This document shows, piece by piece, positions 55,470 through 57,335 of a DNA stretch of 64,000 nucleotides. The notes under the pieces were generated by a model. It made no database searches. It was given only the letters and a program-made list of their open reading frames with translations, and was not told the DNA's origin. Position 1 is the first letter of the stretch, and every line of letters starts with the position of its first letter. Source of the DNA: Bacteroidota bacterium (lineage in GTDB: Bacteria; Bacteroidota; Bacteroidia; Flavobacteriales_D; Crocinitomicaceae). Where the stretch lies: positions 558,001-622,000 of the forward strand of contig JASBTZ010000007.1 of NCBI GenBank assembly GCA_030148165.1, given 5' to 3'. Position numbers and translations under genes: made by a program.

Positions 55470-55520
55470 GCTGTTCACACAGCAAGATCATCGAAGGATA
55501 AGCCTTAATTCATGATCGCT
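55470..55520 (+). promoter_or_regulatory. Two-hairpin structure in the rpsK-rpsD spacer
   Basis: Hairpin 1: GCTGT-TCAC-ACAGC (55470-55483). Hairpin 2: GATCAT / ATGATC (55486-55491 and 55512-55517) enclosing AAGG-ATAAG-CCTT. Together they fill most of the 91-nt leader in front of rpsD (S4), the usual repressor of the alpha operon, so they are a good candidate for an S4-binding site. The S4 link is inference. Confidence 0.55.
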
Positions 55521-55537: not shown

Positions 55538-56143
55538 ATGGCAAGATACAGAGGTCCCAAATCCCGAATTGCACGTCGATTCAGAGATCCGATCTTCGGA
55601 CCTGACAAAGCGTTGGAAAGAAGGAGTTATGGTCCGGGACAACATGGACCAAACAAGAGACGTGGAAAGCAATCAGAATATGCTATCCAGTTAGGAGAAA
55701 AACAAAAAGCGAAGTATACCTATGGTATTCTTGAGCGCCAATTCGCGAACTTGTTCGATAAAGCGTCAAGAATGAAAGGTATTACAGGTGAGAACCTACT
55801 TCAACTTTGTGAATCAAGGTTAGACAATACCGTATTTCGTTTAGGAATTTCTCCAACGCGAAGAGGTGCACGTCAATTGGTTGCTCATAAACACATTACA
55901 GTTAATGGTGAGGTGGTTAACATTCCATCATTTCATGTGAAAGTTGGAGATGTAGTAGGCGTAAGAGAGAAGTCGAAGTCACTTGAAGCTGTGACAAATT
56001 CACTCGCATCGAATACAAACACGTTTGACTGGTTAGATTGGAATCCATCAGCGATGGAAGGAAAAATGGTAGCGGTTCCTAGCCGTGAAATGATTCCTGA
56101 AAACATCAAGGAGCAACTAATCGTCGAATTGTACTCTAAGTAA
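55538..56143 (+). CDS. rpsD: 30S ribosomal protein S4
   Basis: Primary 16S rRNA binder and, in E. coli, repressor of the alpha operon. The 201 residues start [20 protein letters not shown] and lack the N-terminal zinc-binding cysteines. The S4 RNA-binding domain [20 protein letters not shown] and [20 protein letters not shown] follow. Long structured spacers lie on both sides of the gene. Confidence 0.98.
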
Positions 56144-56167
56144 GAATAGTAATTAATCATATTGGAA

Positions 56168-56221
56168 TCTGGCCAAAGGGTTTTATCGACCTTCTTCAAT
56201 CTTTAAAACCGCGCAACCAGA
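56168..56221 (+). promoter_or_regulatory. Two-step hairpin in the rpsD-rpoA spacer
   Basis: TCTGG pairs with CCAGA (56168-56172 / 56217-56221) and GGTTTTA with TAAAACC (56179-56185 / 56204-56210), separated by a symmetric 6/6 internal loop and capped by an 18-nt loop. All pairs are Watson-Crick. It fills the centre of the 103-nt spacer before rpoA. Confidence 0.58.
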
Positions 56222-56246
56222 GGACAATTAAAAAGAAGAAAAAGTA

Positions 56247-57239
56247 ATGGCAATTTTAGATTTTCAAAAACCGGATAAGGTAATAATGATCCAATCCGAT
56301 GAGCATGAAGGACAGTTTGAATTCCGTCCTTTGGAACCGGGTTATGGTATCACAGTAGGAAACGCGTTAAGAAGAATTTTACTTTCATCATTAGAAGGAT
56401 TTGCAATCGCATCTGTTCGAATCGATGGAGTAGATCATGAGTTCTCTACAATTAAAGGAGTAACGGAAGACGTAACAGAGATCATTTTGAACTTGAAGCA
56501 GGTTCGTTTCAAGCAGCAGATCGAAGGTACAGATTCAGAAACTGTAGTTGTATCGGTAAGTGGGCAAGATCAGCTTACAGCTGGTGATATCGGCAAATAT
56601 ACATCTGCATTTCAAGTGTTAAACCCGGACTTAGTGATCTGCAACATGGAGCCAAGTGTAAAATTGGAGGTTGAATTAAAGATCGTTAAAGGTCGTGGAT
56701 ACTATCCTGCAGAAGAAAATAAAGAGAGCGGAGTTGCTTTCGGAACAATCTTCATGGATTCTATCTTCACACCAATCAAGAACGTTAAGTACGCAGTAGA
56801 AAACTATCGTGTTGAACAGAAAACAGATTACGAAAAATTGATTTTTGATATTACAACAGATGGATCAATTCATCCAAAAGATGCCTTGAAAGAAGCAGCG
56901 AAGATTCTTATTCACCACTTCATGCTATTCTCAGATGAGAGAATTACGCTGGACAGCGAAGTTAAAGCGGAGACAGAAGAATTCGACGAAACTTCTCTTC
57001 ATATGCGTCAACTATTGAAAACAAAGCTTGTTGATATGGATCTTTCCGTACGTGCATTGAATTGTTTGAAGGCTGCAGATGTGGAAACATTGGGAGACCT
57101 TGTTTCATACAACAAGAATGATCTTTTGAAATTCAGAAACTTCGGTAAGAAGTCGTTAACAGAGTTGGAAGACTTGGTTGATAACAAAGGACTTTCATTC
57201 GGAATGAATGTTTCAAAATATAAACTAGATAAAGATTAG
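56247..57239 (+). CDS. rpoA: DNA-directed RNA polymerase subunit alpha
   Basis: Assembly platform of RNA polymerase. Of the 330 residues the N-terminal domain (about 1-230) shows [34 protein letters not shown] and a dimerisation core. The C-terminal domain (about 255-330) includes [20 protein letters not shown] and [13 protein letters not shown], which contact DNA and activators. Length is standard. Confidence 0.98.
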
Positions 57240-57269
57240 TATCGCAATTAGAGTAAAAATGGCGTAATA

Positions 57270-57313
57270 GGTGGCTGAGCTGTAGCGATACCGAAGACAA
57301 GACTCAGTTAACC
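57270..57313 (+). promoter_or_regulatory. Hairpin in the rpoA-rplQ spacer
   Basis: CTGAG (57275-57279) pairs with CTCAG (57303-57307), and an outer GGT pairs with ACC (57270-57272 / 57311-57313). It lies in a 96-nt spacer. Pairing is weaker than in the rpoA leader. Confidence 0.4.
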
Positions 57314-57335
57314 GTTACTTACGAAATTTAAAATT

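Follow-up and report, generated by a model that had tools for sequence, protein, structure and literature searches.

A conserved hairpin RNA between rpsD and rpoA in Bacteroidota, a candidate translational switch for RNA polymerase alpha

In the alpha operon of Escherichia coli, ribosomal protein S4 represses neighbouring genes, while the alpha cistron is unaffected by S4 and is regulated independently (as set out in the parts of PMC10931766 that treat this operon). S4 leaders with rpoA among the regulated genes appear in the portions of Eckert and Weinberg 2020 consulted here (PMC7247131), and those portions contain no leader directly before rpoA. Our literature search, which covered openly licensed papers, found no rpoA leader. 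It is at this junction, where E. coli alpha escapes S4 repression in the account excerpted from PMC10931766, that several Bacteroidota groups carry one compact conserved RNA.

The window, by which we mean the whole stretch of 64,000 nucleotides analysed (558001–622000 of its contig), comes from a genome near Fluviicola: the best named relatives of its RpoA, in a ranking possibly without records from the source genome itself, are Crocinitomicaceae bacteria and Fluviicola chungangensis, at 85–90% identity. A 103-nt spacer (56144–56246) separates rpsD (55538–56143) from rpoA (Table 1); no consensus terminator is listed within it, and it holds no TAnnTTTG, the promoter box used as search pattern. 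A preliminary description of this DNA had picked out the spacer and in it the pairings TCTGG/CCAGA and GGTTTTA/TAAAACC nested around a 6/6 internal loop, all of which are present exactly; rpsD ends at 56143, rpoA starts at 56247, and the two strands of the internal loop are CCAAAG and GCGCAA. To these we add an outer AUUG/CAAU stem and a hairpin loop, UUCUUC, complementary to GAAGAA shortly upstream of the rpoA AUG.

Table 1. Features of the spacer RNA and its surroundings, in window positions
Feature	Position	Strand	Remark
S4-Flavobacteria leader RF03141, before rpsD	55486–55517	+	49.9 bits, gathering 35.2; context, outside the element
P1 5′ strand AUUG	56161–56164	+	partner CAAU 56225–56228; nearly invariant
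P2 5′ strand UCUGG	56168–56172	+	covarying helix; partner CCAGA 56217–56221
Internal loop 5′ strand CCAAAG	56173–56178	+	GCnAAAGG in 154/172 copies
P3 5′ strand GGUUUUA	56179–56185	+	covarying helix; partner UAAAACC 56204–56210
Hairpin loop UUCUUC, candidate pseudoknot 5′ partner	56192–56197	+	UCUUC core 56193–56197; UCUUCA in 172/172 copies
P3 3′ strand UAAAACC	56204–56210	+	covarying helix
Internal loop 3′ strand GCGCAA (type I)	56211–56216	+	type II forms in group f17
P2 3′ strand CCAGA	56217–56221	+	covarying helix
P1 3′ strand CAAU	56225–56228	+	pairs with P1 5′ strand
GAAGAA, candidate pseudoknot 3′ partner	56235–56240	+	in rpoA initiation region
rpoA	56247–57239	+	gene presumed under control of the spacer RNA
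Further candidate structured leader before rplQ	57239–57335	+	context, outside the element

The two-step hairpin geometry recurs in 1 of 5,000 mononucleotide shuffles of the spacer, whose folding energy is ordinary (−16.1 kcal/mol, z = −1.0; matched in stability by 29 of 200 dinucleotide shuffles); what raises the hairpin above chance is comparison with relatives rather than folding energy. Spacers were extracted from relatives (L041, which has no rpsD, was excluded) and identical rows removed, the window's own copy (L082) being merged with identical spacers, which left 113 distinct rpsD–rpoA spacers, 54 with the element and 59 without. In an alignment of 54 distinct copies that was not fitted to a structure (A2), RNAalifold returns 17 pairs, arranged as P1 (AUUG/CAAU), P2 (six pairs in the consensus, five in the window), the internal loop and P3 (seven pairs), with two-sided changes in 10 of the 17. 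Alignment to the covariance model of 100 distinct elements, excluding repeat genomes as well as L169 and L178 (A3), is fitted to the structure and so biased towards it; there, 14 of the 17 stem pairs have two-sided changes, and the covariation score of 0.495 compares with 0.194 when shuffled and at most 0.094 with slid partners, a score reached by none of 500 shuffles. P1, nearly invariant, contributes little. Covariation thus rules out a chance hairpin; the stems are real and form the central part of a larger conserved RNA that fills the spacer. Conserved covarying structure in a gene's untranslated region, which characterizes autogenous leader RNAs as a general kind, is present here.

Covariance-model searches covered the window's own phylum in overlapping genome samples and matched 72 of 399 genomes at the level of the order, 14 of 395 in the class sample and 6 of 395 in the phylum sample, as well as 62 of 199 in family f65, 15 of 35 in family f17 and 15 of 42 in the f17 order, absences being upper bounds because filters were tightened whenever more than 40 genomes were searched. 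The 16 of 395 class-sample genomes matched by a second model at E 0.1 include one chance match (G527, L277, E 0.046), which was rejected: it lies in coding sequence, its P3 is broken, and the locus has no rpsD, rpoA or rplQ match. Matches are confined to groups f1, f3, f17 and f65, with exactly one copy in each matching genome; within the window's genus, 27 of the 32 genomes listed match and five do not. The named Flavobacterium loci among the relatives compared lack the element. The order rpsD–element–rpoA is found in 45 of 45 loci (L126–L170) and in 65 of a further 68 (L171–L238; L178, L196 and L200 fell outside the check), and for L247–L276 gene context was checked at the start codon only.

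Spacers that bear the element are 92–201 nt long; those that lack it measure 4–35 nt in 53 of 59 cases and 55–96 nt in the other six. At the start of the long spacers of some relatives (L003, L085, L090, L094, L096, L105), a further stretch, hairpin-like or resembling GATGCGTNAGCATCAAG, lies upstream of the rpoA element. On a tree of S4 and RpoA with 210 rows, 143 of them element-bearing, 19 changes account for the pattern of presence, whereas 30 label shuffles require 58 on average; the element is therefore for the most part inherited and has been lost or gained repeatedly. Three rows (L206, L208, L209) were labelled 'with' by hand, the model having matched where the motif rule missed variant loops. 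When residues of S4, RpoA and L17 were compared with element presence, no column among those listed reached significance.

Across the whole window, the sole credible Rfam 15 match is RF03141. With an E cutoff of 10, the element draws seven matches, of which none comes close to its gathering score or belongs to an r-leader, and RF03141 itself does not reach gathering over the element in the window or in seven carrier loci. No Rfam 15 match marks the element as an E. coli-type alpha-operon S4 leader, and a known Rfam family was rejected as the identity of the element for the window and the seven loci. RF03141 sits before rpsD, the element after rpsD and before rpoA; the leader occurs in five of seven loci with the element and in three of three without it (10 loci), so the two are separate. 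Mimicry of rRNA was rejected at the level of the model, as distinct from three dimensions: model R2, unfiltered, gave a best E of 1.2 against two rRNA operon stretches, both including a 23S stretch, which were taken from G655 and G1193 because the source genome yielded no 16S match and only parts of 23S. We regard as real a widespread cis-regulatory RNA of rpoA that belongs to no Rfam 15 family.

Two short sequences stand out for their constancy. The hairpin loop contains UCUUCA in all 172 distinct copies, and each of these has GAAGA (171) or GAAGG (1) upstream of the rpoA AUG, the GAAG starting 8–15 nt before it. Among spacers with the element, all 54 have GAAG within 20 nt upstream of the AUG; among the 59 that lack it, three do. 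All three exceptions are Aquimarina (L022, L023, L029), where GAAG is possibly a leftover of loss, since congeners (L019, L021, L048) carry the element. In nested folds computed without a pseudoknot, GAAGA is mostly free, with a median unpaired probability of 0.95.

The five core pairs that loop and initiation region could form hardly vary and therefore show no two-sided change. A sixth, between the base before UCUUC and the base after GAAGA, is U-A in 141 of 172 copies, another standard pair in 10 (GC 4, AU 4, GU 1, UG 1) against 1.9 expected by shuffling, and unpaired in 21. Scanning 196 column pairs turned up one unpredicted pair with a larger absolute excess (12 vs 2.5, against 9 vs 1.1 for the sixth pair), so relatedness alone can yield such an excess, and tree-based tests of the sixth pair fell short of significance (median p 0.25 and 0.125, from only 5 and 14 independent pairs). 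Because the core pairs are nearly constant, the scan holds a larger excess elsewhere and the tree test is non-significant, we grade a candidate UCUUC/GAAGA pseudoknot over the rpoA initiation region as well supported but not proved; the unvarying complementarity and the suggestive sixth pair indicate that it may mask this region. This pseudoknot, which the preliminary description lacked, is probably the working part of the element. The earlier proposal of an RNA element that separates rpoA from the ribosomal proteins has good support in the covarying stems, the invariant loops and a position directly 5′ of rpoA at all loci covered by the gene-context check. The stems, whose upkeep in relatives had been named as the check, are kept wherever the element occurs, the element itself being missing from many relatives (59 of the 113 distinct spacers); binding of a protein, as also suggested there, is plausible.

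The internal loop comes in two types. In 12 of the 15 matching f17 genomes a type II loop differs in its 3′ strand, which reads GAAGACA in nine of them, while the layout, the hairpin loop and GAAGA before the AUG are kept; one copy of the 172 (L275) fits neither type by the classification rule used. Most type II copies in group f17 (L164–L168, L204–L210) have a second GAAG within the internal loop. In such copies UCUUC could pair with either GAAG site, and the RNA might switch between two folds.

The reading we prefer, and consider probable on balance, is that of a cis-acting, rpoA-specific leader RNA in which a loop–initiation-region pseudoknot serves as a translational switch within a ribosomal-protein operon. 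The spacer RNA would fold into a long hairpin of P1, P2, internal loop and P3, and the loop UCUUC would then pair with GAAGA, 8–15 nt before the AUG in an A-rich initiation region, closing a pseudoknot that bars the 30S subunit from initiating at rpoA. Since the linker from P1 to GAAG is only 5–7 nt in 172 of 172 copies while the stem stack is long, the helix would have to fold back, probably at the conserved internal loop, to bring UCUUC onto GAAGA; that loop would therefore be the hinge and likely the sensor, and a ligand that binds and bends it would favour the closed, off state. Translational repression, a ligand and helix fold-back are what we infer from these features. Bacteroidota ribosomes use no Shine-Dalgarno pairing, according to the passages of PMC10931766 concerned, and a pseudoknot over an A-rich initiation region would for that reason be an effective off state.

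As to the ligand, alpha itself would make the control autogenous, a tentative step for which the chances seem to us somewhat less than even. The fuller proposal, that alpha controls its own translation through a pseudoknot that switches by fold-back and comes with two or more alternative sensor loops (GCGCAA in type I, mostly GAAGACA in type II), and that S4, alpha and L17 each have their own leader in the operon, is possible but rather unlikely. Most simply, rpoA would have a controller of its own, the third in the operon and independent of the S4 leader and the rplQ element, with alpha as first candidate.

S4 could instead bind the element as a second target, so that rpoA and rpsD would share one control. 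The operon is known to be regulated by S4, an S4-Flavobacteria leader precedes rpsD, and the E. coli S4 site is, in the relevant parts of PMC10931766, a pseudoknot over a start site; yet an S4 leader is already there in five of seven loci with the element and three of three without, no Rfam S4 family matches the element, likeness to 16S or 23S regions is absent at model level (best E 1.2), and in the same excerpted account E. coli S4 spares alpha (PMC10931766), so that we consider this reading improbable. Equally improbable to us is an RNA processing or stability element, akin to the processing site offered as an alternative in the preliminary description, in which a nuclease cut at or near the hairpin would set rpoA mRNA apart from the upstream message. 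A hairpin at a junction of cistrons with differing product requirements would suit such a role, but processing alone explains neither the invariant UCUUCA nor the GAAG before the AUG that is kept only in element-bearing spacers.

A third alternative is a passive role, in which the element would be an insulator or a constant translation enhancer that merely frees translation of rpoA from that of rpsD and lacks an off state. Spacer lengths agree with it, as the 4–35 nt of 53 of the 59 element-less spacers are compatible with coupling to rpsD, against 92–201 nt with the element, and so does the largely unpaired GAAGA of the nested folds. An insulator, however, has no need of an invariant internal loop or of a loop complementary to the initiation region, and we think it quite unlikely.

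Downstream, the rpoA–rplQ spacer of the window holds a conserved covarying hairpin, a candidate rplQ (L17) leader, with two-sided changes in 7 of 21 pairs, a covariation score of 0.224 against 0.139 (32 aligned copies), a candidate pseudoknot GTATCGC/GCGATAC and no Rfam match. Loci L102 and L106 carry it but lack the rpoA element, and L005 shows the reverse combination. In loci of the Flavobacteriaceae type the rpoA–rplQ spacer holds another conserved hairpin, TCATATTTTGCTC...GCAAGATGA (L024, L031, L042, L075, L211, L230, L238 and others), which gave no Rfam match in L031, L075 and L022, and a third conserved stretch, around CTTGTGA...AAGGT...ACTA, precedes rplQ in L005, L020, L163, L171 and L174. 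Three or more unrelated rplQ leaders thus seem to exist in the lineage.

If the rpoA element is a switch, two things become testable: the balance of RNA polymerase alpha against ribosomal proteins of the same message, and the way in which bacteria without Shine-Dalgarno pairing switch translation by structure. The scattered loss and gain of the element within genera supplies natural controls.

Among known systems, the E. coli alpha-operon S4 leader shares with the element its operon and, in the proposed mechanism, a pseudoknot that includes the initiation region and acts on translation; it precedes rpsM, serves as a binding site for S4 and spares rpoA, according to the sections of PMC10931766 devoted to it, whereas the element lies before rpoA, has a different fold and matches no Rfam model. 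The L17 leader of Actino- and Proteobacteria and the L17DE motif of Firmicutes are also structured RNAs at an alpha-operon gene, but they flank rplQ in other phyla (from the pertinent portions of PMC7247131) and have no Rfam match here. RF03141 resembles the element in operon, lineage and its nature as a hairpin leader, and differs in being a 33-nt hairpin before rpsD, co-occurring with the element yet distinct in sequence and structure. The beta and beta′ subunits of E. coli RNA polymerase are translationally autoregulated; the gene is another and we know of no comparable conserved RNA fold described for that control, but a polymerase subunit that limits its own translation is what the proposed switch would have in common with it.
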